Shown one piece after another: positions 8,293 through 56,168 of a DNA stretch of 64,000 bases. Under the pieces are notes generated by a model. It saw only the letters and a program-made list of their open reading frames with translations, made no database searches and had not been told where the DNA came from. The DNA comes from Salinigranum marinum. Lineage in GTDB: Archaea; Halobacteriota; Halobacteria; Halobacteriales; Haloferacaceae. Position 1 is the first letter of the stretch, and each line of letters begins with the position of its first letter. The stretch covers positions 2,415,398 through 2,479,397 of the forward strand of contig NZ_CP100461.1 in assembly GCF_024228675.1 (NCBI RefSeq). Reading direction: 5' to 3'. The position numbers were made by a program, and so were the translations under genes.

Positions 8293-8572
8293 GTGCGCAC
8301 CCGAGGCAGATCGGAGTCACGTTACACATATACAACTGTAATAAGACAGACACCGCTCGTGTGAGTCGAGTGTCGTTACAGCCATGCAAGTGTAATTTTG
8401 TCGGCACTGGACGTCGCCCGTTTCCGCCGAGAGCGACGACCCATCCGACGGCTGTCCGCAGTTCGATTCCGTGAGCCGGTTCTCCCCGGTGCCGTGCGTG
8501 AAACAGAACGCCAGGGTCGACCGTGTCTTTTTCATTATTCGTGTATTTTATATACGAACGGCACGGTAATAG

Positions 8573-8590
8573 CGAGTAGCAGGCTACTCG
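8573..8590. repeat. Inverted repeat upstream of the AOR promoter
   Basis: CGAGTAG-CAGG-CTACTCG forms a perfect 7-bp stem about 40 bp upstream of the AOR TATA-like element, a position suited to an activator or repressor site. It could also be a terminator for an unseen upstream RNA. Confidence 0.4.
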
Positions 8591-8630
8591 TTCGGCTACG
8601 CGTGGTCGGTGTCCAGACGTGCGAGAAACG

Positions 8631-8636
8631 CTTATA
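8631..8636 (+). promoter_or_regulatory. TATA-like box for the AOR gene
   Basis: CTTATA lies 26-31 nt before the ATG at 8662, the right spacing for a leaderless transcript starting at that codon. It favours 8662 over the in-frame ATG at 8653. Confidence 0.5.
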
Positions 8637-8661
8637 CGACGGACGGCCGTGGATGTTCCCA

Positions 8662-10314
8662 ATGCTCCGTACAACGGGTGACCTGCTCACCCTCGACATC
8701 GGCGAGCGGACCTGGGAGACGACACCGATCGACGACGAACTCCGGTCGTTCATCGGCGGGCGTGGGATCGCGACGAAACTCGCACACGAGCGGCTGCCGT
8801 TCGACGCGGACCCGCTGGGGCCGGAGAACCGGGCGTACCTCTCGACGGGGCCGCTCCAAGCGTCGCGGATGAGCTTCACCGGGCGCATGAACGCGACCGC
8901 GCTCTCCCCGCTGACGAACGGGCTCGCGTCGTCGAACGCCGGCGGCTACCTCTCGCGGAACTTCGCGAGCGCCGGCTACCCGTGCGTCGAACTCGTCGGC
9001 GCGAGCGACGACCTGCTCGCGATCCACGTCACGGACGAGGGCGTGCGCTTCGAGGCGGTGCCGGAACTCGCGGGGGCGACCGTCAGCGAGACCACCCGGG
9101 CGATGACCGATCGCCACGGCCTCGAAAGCGAGCACCTGGTGACCGTCGGCCCAGCGGGCGAGAACGAGGTTCGCTACGCCTCGCTGATGACGTCCGACAC
9201 CCGGGCGTTCGGCCGCGGTGGGATCGGTGCCGTGCTCGGGTCGAAGAACGTGAAGACGGTGTCGTTCACCGGGGACGCCGACCTCGACGTCTCGCTCCCG
9301 GACGACGCGGTCGCGAGCGAGATCCACCGCCAGGCCGCGACCGAAGACCACATCATGAAGCGCCAGGGAACGACGAGCGGCGTCGACCTGAAGAACGAGA
9401 TGTTCTCCCTGCCGACGCGGTACTTCGAGCGGATGTCGTTCGACGAGGGCGTCGAGGGGATCAACGGGGCGGCCGTCGAGTCGAAAAAGCACAAGCGCGG
9501 GACGTGCTCGATGTGTGCGTTCGCGTGTAAGCTCCCGACGCGGGACGACGAGACGGGGCTCGAAACCGAGGGGCCGGAGTACGAGACGGTGTTCTCGTTC
9601 GGGAGCAACCTGGAGGTCGGCGACATCGTCTCGGTGATGAAGTCGAACGAGCGGTGTGACGAACTCGGCCTCGACACGATCAGCGCGGGCGTCACGATCG
9701 GGGCGTACCTCCAGGCCGAAGACCGGTTCGGCGACTCGGCGCTGATCCACGACCTGATCGAAAAGATCGCCCGGCGTGAGGGCGTCGGCGACAGCCTCGC
9801 CGAAGGAGTCGACCGCGTGCACGACGACCTCGGCGTGGCGAACTGGACCTCGAAGGGGATGGAGTTCCCCGGCCACGACGGCCGGGTGCTACACGGTCGC
9901 GGGCTCGGCTACGCCACCGCGAACCGGGGTGCGGACCACATGTACTCGAAGATCCACAACCTGGAGTACGAGGGGCGGGTCCACCCAGAGGGGCTCGACG
10001 GGAAGGCATCGATCGTCGCGGATCTCGAGGACCTGAAAGCGGTGAACGACTCTGCGGTGATCTGTAAGTTCTCCCGCTCGGCGATGAGCGACGAGCGCTA
10101 CGAACGACTGTTCGGCGAGGAGTACGAGCAACTGCTCCAGGTCGGGCGGCGGATCGTCGACCTCGAGCGGCACTTCAACAACCAGCGGGGGTTCGACCGC
10201 GCCGACGACACCCTCCCGTACGAGATCGAGGGGATGGACGACGCCCTCGACGAGTACTACACCTACCGCGGGTGGACAGCCGACGGGGTCGTTCCCGACG
10301 GGAACGTGGCCTGA
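8662..10314 (+). CDS. Aldehyde:ferredoxin oxidoreductase family protein (tungstopterin enzyme)
   Basis: 550 aa from ATG 8662 (MLRTTGDLLTLDIGER). AOR enzymes oxidise aldehydes to carboxylates, passing electrons to ferredoxin, with a bis-tungstopterin and one [4Fe-4S] cluster. All cluster ligands are present: C282, C285 and C289 in CSMCAFAC, and C332 in NERCDELGLD. The family landmarks FIGGRGIATKL (N terminus), GRGGIGAVLGSKNVK (domain 1) and RGLGYATANRGADH (C-terminal pterin region) are also present. Cytosolic. It is divergent from the IclR regulator and upstream of the MBL-fold gene, suggesting it oxidises an aldehyde intermediate of the island's pathway. The other AOR-family gene in this window (52699) has lost the cluster motif; this one looks functional. 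Confidence 0.93.
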   Translation: MLRTTGDLLTLDIGERTWETTPIDDELRSFIGGRGIATKLAHERLPFDADPLGPENRAYLSTGPLQASRMSFTGRMNATALSPLTNGLASSNAGGYLSRNFASAGYPCVELVGASDDLLAIHVTDEGVRFEAVPELAGATVSETTRAMTDRHGLESEHLVTVGPAGENEVRYASLMTSDTRAFGRGGIGAVLGSKNVKTVSFTGDADLDVSLPDDAVASEIHRQAATEDHIMKRQGTTSGVDLKNEMFSLPTRYFERMSFDEGVEGINGAAVESKKHKRGTCSMCAFACKLPTRDDETGLETEGPEYETVFSFGSNLEVGDIVSVMKSNERCDELGLDTISAGVTIGAYLQAEDRFGDSALIHDLIEKIARREGVGDSLAEGVDRVHDDLGVANWTSKGMEFPGHDGRVLHGRGLGYATANRGADHMYSKIHNLEYEGRVHPEGLDGKASIVADLEDLKAVNDSAVICKFSRSAMSDERYERLFGEEYEQLLQVGRRIVDLERHFNNQRGFDRADDTLPYEIEGMDDALDEYYTYRGWTADGVVPDGNVA

Positions 10315-49754: not shown

Positions 49755-50315
49755 TCACCAGTCCTCGTTCGTGAGTCGCCACAGCGCGCGGTACAGCGTT
49801 TGGAGGTCGCAGTCGAACTCGTCGGCCAGGTCGCGACACGTCGCGAGGTACGTCTCGTAGTCGGCGGGGGTAACGGGGTCGGGGTACGGTTCCGCGAGTT
49901 CGCCCGCGCCGACGAGCGCGGACCACTCGCGTTCCCCGACGACGAGGTACGACTCGGGGTCGGCGAACTGCAAGAACGCGGAGGCGACCGGGACGTCGAC
50001 GCCGTCCAGCGCGGTCAGTCGGTCGATCGCCTCGTCCACGTCGAGCGACCGGAGGTCGACGAGGACGTCGCGGACCGTCTCGAAGTCGTTCGCCCGGAAC
50101 CGCTCCTCGTGGCGTTGCCGGTCGGCGTCGGGGTACGAGCCGAGGAACCGCCTGAAGTACCACCGCACGACCCACTCGGCGTCGCGCCGGCCGAACTCCC
50201 CCTCGGCGAACATCCCGGGGAGGATGTCGAGGTGTTGGTCTTCGACCGTGACGAGCGGTTCGGACTCGCGGTACGACTCGGCCTCGTCCGTGACGATCGA
50301 CCGGGTGAGTTCCAT
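49755..50315 (-). CDS. Helix-hairpin-helix-like protein of unknown function
   Basis: 186 aa from ATG 50315 (MELTRSIVTDEAESYRESEP). The segment LTALDGVDVPVASAFLQFAD followed by PESYLVVGEREWSAL resembles the helix-hairpin-helix and following helix of base-excision DNA glycosylases (GVGxxxASxxLxxxxPxxxxxxD), although the catalytic Asp of that family is replaced by Gly/Glu. An AT-rich element (50375-50386) lies ~65 nt upstream. Possibly a DNA-binding repair-fold relative; no enzymatic claim. Confidence 0.65.
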   Translation of the reverse strand: MELTRSIVTDEAESYRESEPLVTVEDQHLDILPGMFAEGEFGRRDAEWVVRWYFRRFLGSYPDADRQRHEERFRANDFETVRDVLVDLRSLDVDEAIDRLTALDGVDVPVASAFLQFADPESYLVVGEREWSALVGAGELAEPYPDPVTPADYETYLATCRDLADEFDCDLQTLYRALWRLTNEDW

Positions 50316-50485
50316 CACCTGTGTGTCCGTCGCCGTCCGGCCTGAACGTTTCCCTCCTGTGGGACGCAACGGATCGAGATATCATATAAAACATATCGGG
50401 CCTGTTAAAAACGCGCTAATAACCGTGAGAAACATTCATGCGACTGGAGGAGGATTTTTCACGTGTTTGCTATGACTCACAAGAC

Positions 50486-50499: not shown

Positions 50500-52617
50500 A
50501 TGTCAACTGATGATAACGAACCGGTCAAAACGATCTGTCCGTACTGCGGTGTCGGCTGTGGCATCCAGATCGCACAGGACGACGAGGGCGACGTCTCCTT
50601 CCGGCCGTGGGGCGACGCCCCCGTCAACAAGGGGAGCATCTGCATCAAGGGTGGCGCGGCCACCCAATCAGTCAACCACGAAGAGCGCCTGACAGAGCCG
50701 CTGATCCGCGGCGACGACGGCGAACTCCACGAAGCCACGTGGGACGAAGCCTACGACCTGATCGTCTCGGAGATGGAGCGCATCCGCGACGAGTACAGCC
50801 CTCAGGCCATGGGCTTTTACGGCTGTTCGAAGGCGATGAACGAGGAGAACTACCTCATCCAGAAACTCGCCCGACACTACGGCACCAACAGCGTCGACAC
50901 CTGCACACGGATGTGTCACGCCTCGACGGTGTACGCGCTCAAGAACAGCCTCGGCGAGGGCGCGATGACCAACAGCATGGAGGACCTCGAAGAGGCCGCG
51001 GACGTGTTCTGGATCCAGGGAGCGAACCCCGGCGAGCAACACCCAATCGCCAACAGCCAGTACTTCCGGCAAGCAGTGTTGGAAGGGGCGACCGTCATCC
51101 AGGTCGACCCCCACGCCAACAAGACGACGCGGTCGTTCGAGATCACCGAGACCGACCGCCACATGCACCTCCAGCTGGAGCCGGGCACCGACATCCCGCT
51201 CTTGAACGTCGTCATCAAGACCATCCTGGAGAACGACTGGGTCGACGAGGAGTTCATCGCCGAGCGCACGGAGGGGTTCGACCACCTCAAGGAGACGCTC
51301 GAGGACTTCGACAAGGAGGAGGCGGCCGAGACGTGTGGCGTCCCGCTGGAGGACATCGAACTCGCCGCCGAGAAGTACGCGATGGCGAACAACGCGGCCA
51401 TCTTCACCGGCATGGGGATGAGCCAGCACACCTGCGGCGTCGACAACGTCCAAAACGAGATCAACCTCGCGCTGGTCACGGGCAACCTCGGCCGCCCGGG
51501 GACGGGGGTCAACCCGCTCCGCGGACAGAACAACGTCCAGGGTGCCTCCGACGTGGGCGCGATGCCGAACGTCCTCCCCGGCTACCGTTCGGTCGACGAC
51601 CCCGAGGTCCGGGCGGACGTCGGGGGCGAGTGGGGCTTCGAGATCCCGTCCGAACCCGGCCTGACGAACGTCGAGGTCTCCCACGAGATCGGCAACACGA
51701 TCCACGGCCTGTACATCATGGGCGAGAACCCCGTGATGAGCGAACCCGACACCAACATGGTCGAAAAGCGGATGGAGGAGTTGGAGTTCATGGTGGTCCA
51801 GGACATCTTCCCGACCGAGACGACGGAGTTCGCGGACGTCGTCCTGCCGGCCACGTCGTGGGCTGAACGCGACGGGACGGTCGTCAACACCGACCGCCGA
51901 ACCCAGCGGATGCGCGGCGTCGATAAGGTCTACCCGAACACGAAAGACGACCTCGAGATCCTCTGTGACGTCGGGACCCGTCTGTTCGGCGACGGCAGCT
52001 TCGACTTCGACGACCCCGAGGAGGTGTTCGAGGAACTCCGACAGGTCGCGCCCATCTTCCACGGCATGACGTACGACCGCCTGGGCGAGGAGGGCATCCA
52101 CTGGCCCTGTTACGAACCCGGCGACGAGGGAGACTCCTACCTCTACGAGGACGGCTTTACCACCGAGAGCGGCCGCGGACAGATCGAGGGTGTGCGCCAC
52201 CAGCCGCCGAAGGAGGTCCCCGACGAGGAGTACCCCCTGATCCTCACCACGGGCCGCATCATCGAACACTACAACACGGGGACGATGAGCCGCCGGTCCG
52301 ACACGCTCACCCGCGTCGAACCGGAGAACTTCGTCGACGTGCACCCGAACGACGCCGCGAACTACGGCATCGAGGACGGCGACTACGTGAAGCTCAAGTC
52401 CCGGCGCGGAGAGATCGAAGTCCAGGCCCGCGTCACCGAGGACATCAAGGAAGGGACGGTGTGGACGACCCCGCACTTCGCCGACTCCGCGGGCAACCGC
52501 CTCACGAACGACGTGCTCGACGAGCGGGCGAAGATCCCCGAGTACAAGGCCGCAGCCGCCGAGATCGAGGTCGGCATCGAGCCGAGCCCCGACGTCGACG
52601 CGCCCGCCGACGACTGA
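50500..52617 (+). CDS. fdhA: Formate dehydrogenase alpha subunit (molybdopterin oxidoreductase)
   Basis: 705 aa. N-terminal [4Fe-4S] ligands are C13, C16, C20 and C48 (CPYCGVGC, then GSICIKG). The Mo/W ligand is C139 in TRMCHAST, aligning with Sec140 of E. coli FdhF, followed by His140. The conserved HxxTC context, NPGEQHP and GMGMSQHT segments match formate dehydrogenases. The C-terminal molybdopterin dinucleotide domain is complete (GRIIEHYNTGTMSRRSDTL). It oxidises formate to CO2, passing electrons to an unidentified partner; no beta subunit is adjacent. A Mo-cofactor gene (mobA) lies 2 kb away. A Shine-Dalgarno site supports the start. Confidence 0.93.
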   Translation: MSTDDNEPVKTICPYCGVGCGIQIAQDDEGDVSFRPWGDAPVNKGSICIKGGAATQSVNHEERLTEPLIRGDDGELHEATWDEAYDLIVSEMERIRDEYSPQAMGFYGCSKAMNEENYLIQKLARHYGTNSVDTCTRMCHASTVYALKNSLGEGAMTNSMEDLEEAADVFWIQGANPGEQHPIANSQYFRQAVLEGATVIQVDPHANKTTRSFEITETDRHMHLQLEPGTDIPLLNVVIKTILENDWVDEEFIAERTEGFDHLKETLEDFDKEEAAETCGVPLEDIELAAEKYAMANNAAIFTGMGMSQHTCGVDNVQNEINLALVTGNLGRPGTGVNPLRGQNNVQGASDVGAMPNVLPGYRSVDDPEVRADVGGEWGFEIPSEPGLTNVEVSHEIGNTIHGLYIMGENPVMSEPDTNMVEKRMEELEFMVVQDIFPTETTEFADVVLPATSWAERDGTVVNTDRRTQRMRGVDKVYPNTKDDLEILCDVGTRLFGDGSFDFDDPEEVFEELRQVAPIFHGMTYDRLGEEGIHWPCYEPGDEGDSYLYEDGFTTESGRGQIEGVRHQPPKEVPDEEYPLILTTGRIIEHYNTGTMSRRSDTLTRVEPENFVDVHPNDAANYGIEDGDYVKLKSRRGEIEVQARVTEDIKEGTVWTTPHFADSAGNRLTNDVLDERAKIPEYKAAAAEIEVGIEPSPDVDAPADD

Positions 52618-52698: not shown

Positions 52699-54546
52699 TC
52701 AGCTGTCGCCCGGGGCGACCGGCGTCGCGTCGTCGACGACATCGCCGAGGTCGAGTCGTTCGACGAGCGCCCGGGTCGGTCGCCCCTCGGCGTCCCAGCC
52801 CCGGACGTCGTAGTACGCCGAAAGGAGATCGTCGAACGCCGCCGGATCGGCCCCCTCGCGGACGGCGTCGGTCGAGGGCCGTCGGACGGCCGCCGGGAGG
52901 CCGTCGTCCGCGTGGTCGAACCCCTCGCGGACGTTGAACAGCCGGGTGAGCGTCCACACGCGCTCGCCGACCGCGAGCAGTTCCTCCTCGGTGTAGTCGA
53001 ACCCCAGCGCCGCGAGCAGTGCCGCGCCGTGGTCGGGGAGGGTCTCGCCGACGAAGTCGTCGGCGACGAGACACCAGAGGAGCGAGCGGAGGTCCTGCTC
53101 GGCCGCGACGGTTCGCGCCCGGCGCTCGTTCGACCACTCCTCGGTGGCGAACACCTCGGTGACGGCCGGTCGTGCCCGCCGGTGGCAGGCACCGCGGTCG
53201 CTCGTGGCGTACGCCAGTGCCATCGCCAGCGACCCGCGGGGATCGTACGAGGGGAGCGCGACGGACTTCACCGTCGGAACGAGGTCGTCACCACCGAAGC
53301 GGGTGGCCGCGGCGGTGACCCCGTCGGCGAGTGCGTCGGCGAGCGGCCCCTCCCGACGGGCGATCGCCGACAGGAGCCGTCGTACCCCCTCCGCGTCCCC
53401 GAAGGCGAGGTCGGTGGCGTCGGGGTCGACCGCCTCCGACAGGTACCCCTCGTCGGCGGCTCGAACCGCCCAGGCGACGGCGTTGCCGGCGCTGATGACG
53501 TCCAGTCCGAGCCGGTCGCAGAGGCCGCCGAGTGTGGCGACGGCGTCGAAGTCGTCGATGCCGAGTCCCGCGCCGAGCACCATCGGTGTCGCCCCTCGCG
53601 GGACCGTCTCGGCGGCGTCGGCGGAGCCGTCGGAGTCCGGGTGGGTCCCGGCGGCGTCGGCCGTCGCGACGCGGAAATCGCCGTCGGCCTCCCGGGCGTG
53701 TGCTGCCGCGCGGACCGCCTCGACGCCGACGTTCTCGGCCCCCTCGAACCGATCGGCCTGCCAGCCGCGGGTCGGGAGAATGCCGACCTCGTTGGCGAAG
53801 TCGAGCGTCTCGACCGTGCCGCCGGCGTCGATCCACCGACCGGTGTCGCTGTCGTGGTAATGGTCGGTGTACTGTTCCCGGACGGCCGCGGCCGCCTCCG
53901 GCAACGCCGACAGGTCGGGGGAGTCGCCCTCGACGACGACCGCCTTGAGTCGTTTCGACCCCATGACCGCTCCGACGCCGCCACGGCCCGCCTGGTGGTC
54001 GCCGCCGTCGGTCCCGATCGTCGCGTACCGCACCCGGTGTTCGCCCGCCGGGCCGATACAGGCGACCGCGACGTCGCCGTCACTGTCGCCGTCGGCGAGC
54101 GCCGCGTCGGTCGCCGGGATGGTCTTCCCCCACTGTTCCGTCGGCGACAGCGTCGCCCCCCCGCCCGAGAGCCGGAGGACGCAGGGTTCGTCCGCACGGC
54201 CCGTGACGACGAGCGCGAGGTGCCGGTCGAGCGCGTTCGGGAGGCGCGCGGCGAACGAGCCGCCGACGTACGAGTCGACGAACGTCCCCGACAGGGGTGA
54301 CTTCGTGACGACCGCACACCGCGGCTCGCCCGGGAGCGAGCCGCTGAGCGGACCGACGGCGAAGCAGAGGCTGTTCGCGCTGGAGAGCGGGTCCGTCCCC
54401 GCACGGAGATCGTCGTACAGGACCTTGGCCCCGATCCCTTTGCCGCCGAGGAACCGACGGCGGTCCGCCTCGGGAACCGGCTCGCTTCTGGCCGTGCCGG
54501 TGTCGAGGTCGACGCGGAGGAGTCGAGTCGGGGGACGACGGCTCAT
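52699..54546 (-). CDS. AOR-family protein lacking the [4Fe-4S] cluster ligands
   Basis: 615 aa. N-terminal family features are intact: FLGGKGIGAKVLYDDL (32-47), PLSGTFVDSYVGG (84-96) and AGRGGVGAVMGSKRLK (186-201). The usual CxxCxxxC (present in the paralogue at 8662) is absent; residues 281-320 are an Ala/Asp-rich stretch (READGDFRVATADAAG). The GPEYET motif is also missing. The fourth Cys remains at C343 (GLCDRLGLDVIS). The C-terminal pterin-side sequence SDRGACHRRARP is kept. So tungstopterin might bind but electron transfer by the usual cluster is unlikely. Convergent with the formate dehydrogenase gene. AAATAAAG (54573-54580; minus-strand CTTTATTT) is 27-34 nt upstream: leaderless. Confidence 0.9.
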   Translation of the reverse strand: MSRRPPTRLLRVDLDTGTARSEPVPEADRRRFLGGKGIGAKVLYDDLRAGTDPLSSANSLCFAVGPLSGSLPGEPRCAVVTKSPLSGTFVDSYVGGSFAARLPNALDRHLALVVTGRADEPCVLRLSGGGATLSPTEQWGKTIPATDAALADGDSDGDVAVACIGPAGEHRVRYATIGTDGGDHQAGRGGVGAVMGSKRLKAVVVEGDSPDLSALPEAAAAVREQYTDHYHDSDTGRWIDAGGTVETLDFANEVGILPTRGWQADRFEGAENVGVEAVRAAAHAREADGDFRVATADAAGTHPDSDGSADAAETVPRGATPMVLGAGLGIDDFDAVATLGGLCDRLGLDVISAGNAVAWAVRAADEGYLSEAVDPDATDLAFGDAEGVRRLLSAIARREGPLADALADGVTAAATRFGGDDLVPTVKSVALPSYDPRGSLAMALAYATSDRGACHRRARPAVTEVFATEEWSNERRARTVAAEQDLRSLLWCLVADDFVGETLPDHGAALLAALGFDYTEEELLAVGERVWTLTRLFNVREGFDHADDGLPAAVRRPSTDAVREGADPAAFDDLLSAYYDVRGWDAEGRPTRALVERLDLGDVVDDATPVAPGDS

Positions 54547-54580: not shown

Positions 54581-54726
54581 CCGCGGTCACTGTGCGGTGG
54601 TATTTATACAAACGCCGGCGAGGCGGAGGGTCGCCCGCGACCGGACGAGCGCTCGCTCGGATCCACACGGCGTGATCCCCCGTCCGGGAGCCGTAGGCTC
54701 TTGTCCGGGGGCGCGCTACGACGAGT

Positions 54727-55350
54727 ATGCCAACCGCCGTCATCGTCGCCGGCGGCCGATCGACCCGCTTCGGCGACCGCGACAAGATCGTCGCCGACCT
54801 CGCTGGCACTCCCATGATCCGCCGGGTCGCCGACCGGCTCGCGGGCGTCTGCGACCGCGTCGTCATCAACTGCCGGGCGGACCAGCGAGCCGCCGTCGCC
54901 ACGGCGCTCGACGGCCTCGCGGTCCCGGTCTCGTTCGCCCTCGATCCCGACCCCGACCACGGACCCGTCGCCGGCATTCGGACGGGGCTCCGGGCGGTCG
55001 AAACCGAGTACGCCGTGGTGGTCGCCGGTGACATGCCGTTCGTCGACCCGGGGTTCGTCGGGTACCTGTTCGACCGCGCCGCGGGTCACGACGCCGCCGT
55101 CCCCCGGCCCGGGGAGTGGTACCAGCCGATGCAGGCCGTCTACCGCGCGGAGACGATGGCCGACGCCTGCGACGCCGCGCTCGCGGCGAGCGAGGAGGGC
55201 GAACCCAGGATCCTCGCGCCGGTCTTCGAGATCGACTACGCCGTCGTCTCCGCCGAAGAGATCGCCGACCGCGCGACCGACGACACGTTCGAGAACCTCA
55301 ACACGGTCGAGGAACTCCGCGCGGCGGCCGCGCGACTCGCGAAGGAGTGA
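54727..55350 (+). CDS. mobA: Molybdenum cofactor guanylyltransferase MobA
   Basis: 207 aa. The nucleotidyltransferase signature is at the N terminus, VIVAGGRSTRFGDRDKIVAD (LxGGxSxRxGxxK type), with the DP...HGPVAGIRTGL substrate loop and VVVAGDMPFV metal Asp motif. It attaches GMP to Mo-molybdopterin to give the guanine dinucleotide form used by many DMSO-reductase-family enzymes such as formate dehydrogenase. Clustering with the dehydrogenase fits. Start ATG 54727. Convergent with yqeC. Confidence 0.92.
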   Translation: MPTAVIVAGGRSTRFGDRDKIVADLAGTPMIRRVADRLAGVCDRVVINCRADQRAAVATALDGLAVPVSFALDPDPDHGPVAGIRTGLRAVETEYAVVVAGDMPFVDPGFVGYLFDRAAGHDAAVPRPGEWYQPMQAVYRAETMADACDAALAASEEGEPRILAPVFEIDYAVVSAEEIADRATDDTFENLNTVEELRAAAARLAKE

Positions 55351-55403: not shown

Positions 55404-56168
55404 TCAGGCGAACACGTCGACGACTGGGTCGGGGTCGATCAGTCGCGTGAGGACGACCCGGTCGATCCGGTCGGTGTGGGCGAGCGCCGCGGCGGCGGCT
55501 CGCTCTCCGGCCGCGCGGTGCGTCTCGTCGTCGACCATGTTTACGACGGCCACGACCTGTGCGCCGTCCGGGAGGTCTTTCAGCCCCCCGTCGGGGCTCG
55601 CGAGGAGCCGACCGACGGCCTCGGCGTCGATCTCGTCGCCGACGTCGAGTCCGGTGACCGCCGCGACGCGTTCGGGGTGGTGGACCCACTCGTCGGTGAG
55701 CGGCTTGCCGACGGCGCGGGCGCTCGCGATCGGGAGGACCGTGTCGGCGCTCGTCGGGACTTGTGGCTCGCGGTCGCTGGGTGCCTTCAGGAGGCGGTTG
55801 CGCGCGCCGTCGGCCTTCACCAGGAGGGGTCCGTCGTGGGCGGCCGCGAGGTCGTCGACGACCGCGGGGTCGTAGCCGCGGTAGCGGTCCGCACGGTCGC
55901 GTTCGGGAACGAGACCGAGCGGCCATCGTTCCTCGGCGTCGTCGGCGTCGTCGACGTCGACGTCAACGTCGGCGAGCGCGCCGACCGGATCCGCGGTCAC
56001 GACGACTCGCGCGACCTGGTCGTCGAAGATCGGGATCCGGACCGTCGCGGTCACCACCGCGCGGTCGAGCAGCGAGCCGAGCAGGTAGAGCGTCGTCTTC
56101 TTGCCGCCCGCGCCGACCACGGCGACACACTGTCCTTCGTCCGCCGCGAGAGCCGAAGCGAGACGCAT
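55404..56168 (-). CDS. yqeC: YqeC-like protein, molybdoenzyme accessory
   Basis: 254 aa. P-loop-like VVGAGGKKTTL at the N terminus and the family landmark LVKADGARNRLLKAPSDREP near the centre (xADGSxxxxLKAPxxxEP). YqeC is named from a putative selenium-dependent molybdenum hydroxylase accessory set. No selenocysteine machinery is visible here, so its role may be in Mo/W enzyme maturation more generally. It lies between mobA (convergent) and cbiP on the minus strand. Confidence 0.85.
   Translation of the reverse strand: MRLASALAADEGQCVAVVGAGGKKTTLYLLGSLLDRAVVTATVRIPIFDDQVARVVVTADPVGALADVDVDVDDADDAEERWPLGLVPERDRADRYRGYDPAVVDDLAAAHDGPLLVKADGARNRLLKAPSDREPQVPTSADTVLPIASARAVGKPLTDEWVHHPERVAAVTGLDVGDEIDAEAVGRLLASPDGGLKDLPDGAQVVAVVNMVDDETHRAAGERAAAAALAHTDRIDRVVLTRLIDPDPVVDVFA

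Follow-up and report, generated by a model that had tools for sequence, protein, structure and literature searches.

Formate dehydrogenase (FDH) receives its bis-MGD from FdhD, which binds this cofactor and supplies the terminal sulfur, and which the bacteria studied cannot do without (PMC6239281, PMC13197769); a review counts the absence of FdhD from halobacteria among the open questions (PMC10609526). Proteins of the AOR family bind bis-MPT. Bis-Mo-MPT from one of them, YdhV, was converted in vitro to bis-MGD with MobA and then activated apo-TorA; bis-Mo-MPT itself was not inserted, and apo-YdhV did not accept bis-MGD (PMC9103625). YqeC has been linked to selenium-dependent molybdenum hydroxylases, a cluster of this kind being known from Haloarcula (PMC2276186). 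Deletion of yqeC had no obvious phenotype (PMC11448449), and a 2024 study in C. difficile described YqeC as a protein without known predicted domains.

The gene considered here, denoted AORx, encodes a protein of the AOR/WOR (tungsten aldehyde oxidoreductase) family without Fe-S ligands and lies at 52699–54546 on the minus strand of a 64,000-nucleotide stretch of Salinigranum marinum DNA (the window). Its reading frame is open over 615 codons from the ATG at 54546, giving a protein of 615 residues, as an earlier note on this DNA had reported. The promoter claimed there can be matched to a TATA-like box, TATAAATA (54601–54608, minus strand), which lies 54 nt before the ATG and is a consensus match only. 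Both Pfam domains, AFOR_N (E = 4.9e-61) and AFOR_C (E = 5.6e-91), are full length, and among proteins of solved structure P. furiosus AOR (1aor) is the closest in sequence. The AF2 model (pLDDT 87.8) could be superimposed on 1b25 with Z = 45.8 and an rmsd of 2.3 over 581 residues, nearly the full length, and on 1aor with Z = 45.0. The predicted fold, obtained by the kind of modelling proposed earlier as a check, is that of an intact AOR, and the two AFOR domains, the fold and the position in the tree (see below) make AORx a member of the AOR/WOR family by descent. The weakest part of the model is the loop at residues ≈270–320 (pLDDT 51–61), which matches the loop that holds three of the four cluster ligands in other AORs.

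For the comparison of residues, 90 Cys-less orthologues were aligned with seven proteins of a Cys-bearing sister clade and 16 other AORs, and P. furiosus AOR (Pf) numbering served as the reference; all residue coordinates given here are on the minus strand. Both CxxCxxxC and GPEYE are absent from AORx, whereas the AOR paralogue at 8398–10314 of the window has CSMCAFAC and GPEYET, a difference that had been noted correctly. All four [4Fe-4S] cysteines are gone, and not one of the 90 orthologues keeps any of them. C288 is replaced by Asp or Glu, C291 by Val or Ile, and C295 by Phe (87/90) or Tyr, while the fourth ligand, C494, has become D496 (53059–53061), an aspartate in 90/90 orthologues; the position of C494 was taken from an ungapped match in the alignment that includes the sister clade. 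The earlier assignment of C343 (53518–53520) as the remaining fourth ligand was mistaken. This conserved residue is aligned with the non-ligand Pf C337 and lies in the C-D-x-x-G-x-D pterin motif, and an equivalent cysteine is present in 15 of the 16 cluster-bearing AORs.

The ligand loop, which comprised C288, C291, C295 and GPEYE, has been replaced as a whole (residues ≈287–320; 53587–53688) and coincides with the lowest pLDDT. It had been described as a low-complexity stretch, which is accurate for the variable acidic insert at its centre but not for its ends, the conserved G-G-F-R-V and V-P-R-G-A-T. At the site of GPEYE, Pf E311 is replaced by R317 (53596–53598; 89/90), Y312 by G318 (90/90) and the catalytic E313 by Ala, Gly or Ser (A319 in the window protein). 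Further along, the D489..C494 motif reads W491..D496, where W491 (53074–53076) is invariant (90/90) and takes the place of the pterin-binding D489, itself F/Y in the sister clade. The claim that the other family motifs are intact fails at these two sites, but it holds for R76 (82/90), G95 (90/90), T244 (Pf T243; 90/90), Y434 (Pf Y427; 89/90), D349 in the pterin-binding motif (Pf D343; 53500–53502; 90/90) and H455 (Pf H448; 53182–53184; 90/90). H448 belongs to the second shell of the metal in Pf AOR (PMC12096430), and the second-shell equivalents of His448, Tyr427 and Thr243 are thus all present. Two other differences from Pf AOR, N93 to Tyr (Y93) and R182 to His (H184), are shared with the Cys-bearing sister clade and are therefore older changes, compatible with a cluster-bearing protein.

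The conservation on the pterin side is compatible with a bound W- or Mo-bis-pterin, but is only suggestive, and since W491 and D496 occupy the second-pterin site of Pf AOR, pterin binding in AORx might be weaker. A cofactor-free pseudoenzyme, serving as a regulator, a sensor of the Mo/W or pterin supply, or a structural partner for FDH or some other AOR subunit, would fit the joint loss of catalytic and cluster residues and the tryptophan in place of D489. An empty shell, however, would have no need of near-invariant pterin-side residues, and D489 was already F/Y in the sister clade that retains the cysteines. We regard such a pseudoenzyme as quite unlikely.

AORx orthologues (at least 50% identity) were found in 127 of the 243 haloarchaeal genomes of the order, after four genomes with only the 40–44% sister type had been taken out of the positive count. 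The Cys-less proteins come together in a single group of the maximum-likelihood tree (support 100/99), sister to the Cys-bearing haloarchaeal clade. Thus, the sequences indicate that the cluster was lost once, in a single ancient event in the AORx lineage. NG86 dN/dS ratios were 0.06–0.28 in close AORx pairs (dS below ≈0.3) and 0.29 between the window protein and that of a congener (L077); the median over all pairs, 0.45, was set aside because dS is saturated there. Reading frames are full length in more than 100 genomes.

Seen in one sequence, the acidic low-complexity insert and the missing motif look degraded, as they would in a decaying gene or as a result of a sequencing or assembly error. 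With 90 orthologues alike, dN/dS well below 1 and full-length frames so widespread, decay or error is hardly credible. Both had been named in the earlier note as findings that would overturn its proposal, and both are excluded by the shared state and by selection; the multiple alignment suggested there showed the loss to be common to 90/90 haloarchaeal orthologues. The note's proposal that the gene was repurposed rather than simply decaying is well supported by the sequence comparisons, because there was one loss, new invariant residues arose at the lost sites, and AORx is under purifying selection and broadly retained.

The neighbours of AORx suggest what it may have been repurposed for. Convergent with it is a gene for an FDH alpha subunit (50500–52617, plus strand; TIGR01591, 751 bits, over the cut-off) with the catalytic Cys-His in RMCHAST. 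A MobA-like guanylyltransferase gene (54727–55350, plus strand; PF12804) is divergent from it, with TIGR02665 MobA as the best NCBIfam match at 101 bits, below the cut-off. Beyond this lies a YqeC-family gene (55404–56168, minus strand; TIGR03172, 149 bits, over the cut-off). Among 60 AORx-related loci for which 9 kb or more of DNA was available, YqeC was found in 35, FDH in 26 and MobA in 12, and at least one of the three lay within ≈6 kb in 52. None of them was found near the sister-clade genes in seven loci. The window also contains a gene for a 204-aa protein with no Pfam match (49755–50369, minus strand), which is retained next to FDH in 13 AORx loci. On annotated plasmids, FDH with a NuoF-like subunit is present, as are formate-THF ligase, glyA and similar C1 genes.

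Two enzymatic readings bear on these surroundings. Acetylene hydratase belongs among the DMSO-reductase relatives, and AORx could, like it, still be an enzyme, one whose reaction at a W/Mo-bis-pterin centre is non-redox or self-contained and belongs to a C1 or formate pathway beside FDH. The retention of T244, Y434, H455 and the pterin residues would agree with this, as would the C1 neighbours in several genomes (formate-THF ligase, glyA, betaine transporters, a Rieske-type oxygenase). However, the general-acid/base Glu and Tyr have given way to Arg and Gly, AORx tracks the cofactor-gene marker YqeC without exception (see below), which a catabolic enzyme need not do, and acetylene hydratase retains its Fe-S cluster (PMC12096430). 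We therefore consider a surviving enzyme unlikely. The second reading, a redox enzyme that has no cluster of its own and passes electrons directly to the cluster or flavin of a partner, is very unlikely: the fold and the metal-side His and Tyr are intact, and iron-sulfur and FDH subunit genes lie near some AORx copies, but every orthologue has lost the catalytic Glu313, and no single electron-transfer gene recurs across the loci, where YqeC, MobA and FDH-alpha are the usual partners.

FdhD (PF02634, E ≤ 1e-20) had no match in any of the 243 haloarchaeal genomes, and none in the S. marinum genome even at E ≤ 10; the search controls, including E. coli and Methanosarcina, were positive. PF02634 is not present in AORx, in which only the AFOR domains were detected. 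Even so, many haloarchaea encode FDH-alpha proteins that carry the catalytic Cys-His. We distinguished type a, the kind found in the window (≈710 aa; 93 genomes), type b (≈1100 aa; 68 genomes) and the remaining types, mostly type c (≈757 aa). YqeC is present in 145/145 genomes with type a or b, and these types occur in 0/80 genomes that lack YqeC. All 127 AORx genomes among the 243 searched have YqeC, and AORx itself is found in 118 of the 145 genomes with FDH a/b compared to nine of the other 98. The Fisher values for co-occurrence were 5e-47, 3e-36 and 6e-31, with the kinship of the genomes ignored. Six genera (g6, g26, g27, g38, g47 and g49), among the genomes listed, include both members that lack YqeC and FDH a/b and members that have both, and this variation within genera agrees with the co-occurrence.

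The remaining 27 of the 145 genomes have FDH a/b and YqeC without AORx, and AORx is therefore not strictly required, a point that also favours the pseudoenzyme. YqeC is the universal partner and AORx a frequent one, which may act as an enhancer rather than as an essential factor. In thirty genomes, only other FDH types occur; both YqeC and AORx are missing from 20 of them, so that another FdhD-free route to FDH must exist. We considered the possibility that type c is not a true FDH and rejected it, since it has the same Cys-His motif; the YqeC-free route is therefore real. Most genomes with type c alone lack both FdhD and YqeC and thus need a further maturation route. In several loci (L116–L124, L134), the type c gene is followed by a DMSO-reductase-family gene of ≈650–725 codons with the motif NVDNRARxCH.

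In some of the nine AORx genomes outside the FDH a/b set, AORx lies near a more distant FDH-like gene. Its product of ≈1000 aa was seen near AORx in L145 (6083–9061), L147 (14265–17303) and L024 (10205–13192), with the motif IDHQARICHSTTV in L024 and TIGR01591 scores of ≈430–450 bits, below the cut-off. Ferredoxin-, NrfD- and TorD-like genes adjoin it in some loci.

The YqeC protein from the window was modelled with high confidence (AF2, pLDDT 93.8), and the model matches P-loop NTPases of the SIMIBI class, namely SRP-type GTPases (Z up to 12.5), MeaB (10.3) and MinD, with HypB and CooC1 among the weaker Foldseek matches. SIMIBI NTPases include cofactor-insertion GTPases. We predict with high confidence that YqeC is a SIMIBI-type P-loop NTPase, a fold which does not in itself show its function.

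A selenium link for AORx was considered and rejected. An accessory system for selenium-dependent molybdenum hydroxylases would be recognized by the presence of both SelD and YqeB, and the S. marinum genome has no SelD over the cut-off and no YqeB. SelD was present in 23 of the 243 haloarchaeal genomes, all of them with YqeC, and was missing from 109 of the 127 AORx genomes; a single species had been reported in 2008. In genomes of the Haloarcula type, YqeC is present as two paralogues, of which one adjoins SelD and the other AORx (L149–L151; G040, G093, G098, G128, G133, G155, G159 and others). The SelD-linked copies form a separate clade (100/100) from those linked to AORx.

With a probability of roughly 0.4, AORx is a former AOR/WOR redox enzyme that has turned into a maturation factor for Mo/W FDH, and this specific role constitutes a testable hypothesis of about that likelihood. 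The best reading of AORx is as a carrier or scaffold for a Mo/W-bis-pterin in a YqeC-centred, FdhD-independent maturation module. Its retention by selection beside FDH and cofactor genes puts it among the candidates for the machinery activating haloarchaeal FDH. A role in cofactor storage or insertion, one of those suggested in the earlier note, is now favoured by genomic evidence, namely that AORx is associated with YqeC, MobA and FDH where FdhD is lacking. We infer that AORx binds the cofactor, makes contact with YqeC, MobA or FDH, and takes part in cofactor transfer. Its two pterin-binding domains would still hold Mo- or W-bis-molybdopterin; lacking the [4Fe-4S] cluster and the catalytic Glu and Tyr, it would no longer be able to catalyse the aldehyde reaction, and its pocket would have turned into a carrier or scaffold. 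The neighbouring MobA would then complete the cofactor held by AORx to bis-MGD, and the YqeC NTPase would assist in the terminal sulfuration of the cofactor and in its transfer to apo-FDH, so that the three proteins together would do the job of FdhD elsewhere. This full pathway, in which YqeC, Cys-less AORx and MobA build, sulfurate and insert the bis-MGD of FDH with AORx as the cofactor chaperone, is put forward tentatively. The YdhV/MobA/TorA chemistry offers a precedent in part. It counts against the carrier reading that AOR-family proteins bind bis-MPT and that apo-YdhV refuses bis-MGD, so that a carrier such as AORx would have to act before the MobA step.

We consider AORx a variant of the known AOR/WOR family with an interesting genomic link to the stated open question of FDH without FdhD. 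Concrete candidates for FDH activation can now be named: YqeC, present in 145/145 genomes that have FDH a/b, and the Cys-less AORx, present in 118/145. YqeC, so far discussed with selenium alone, is placed in a selenium-free setting, and AORx, if the reading is true, would be a case of a metalloenzyme family yielding a non-redox factor. A keyword search of two recent papers on the family (PMC13328260, PMC12096430) gave no mention of a cluster-less AOR clade.

Among known systems, FdhD/FdsC, the FDH-specific sulfurtransferase and bis-MGD chaperone, resembles AORx in proposed function and in its association with FDH, by analogy only, and is unrelated to it in sequence and fold. The BamB/YdhV clade likewise combines the AOR fold with no clear aldehyde activity, and the cofactor of YdhV is Mo-bis-MPT, with no guanine nucleotides attached (PMC9103625). 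These proteins keep the [4Fe-4S] cluster and an additional Cys metal ligand, C322 in BamB and C336 in YdhV (PMC12096430, PMC9103625), whereas AORx has no cluster ligands and, with the cluster motif absent, does not show the pairing of motif and metal-ligand Cys that marks this clade. The Cys-bearing sister proteins (Natrialba magadii NMAG_RS18645, Natribaculum luteum MU558_RS20605) are 40–44% identical to AORx and share its Y93, H184 and C454-H455 peculiarities. Unlike AORx, they keep CxxCxxxC, the fourth Cys and GPEYET, and they sit among polyamine- or arginine-type catabolic genes; in Natribaculum and Natrialba (L136–L142, L114, L115), polyamine/putrescine transport and arginine-type catabolic genes adjoin. 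Compared to P. furiosus AOR (1aor), AORx has the four cysteines and E311/Y312/E313 replaced, together with D489 by Trp, N93 by Tyr and R182 by His. It nevertheless has the same two Pfam domains and the same fold as 1aor and formaldehyde ferredoxin oxidoreductase (1b25), and conserves the equivalents of G95, T243, D343, Y427 and H448.
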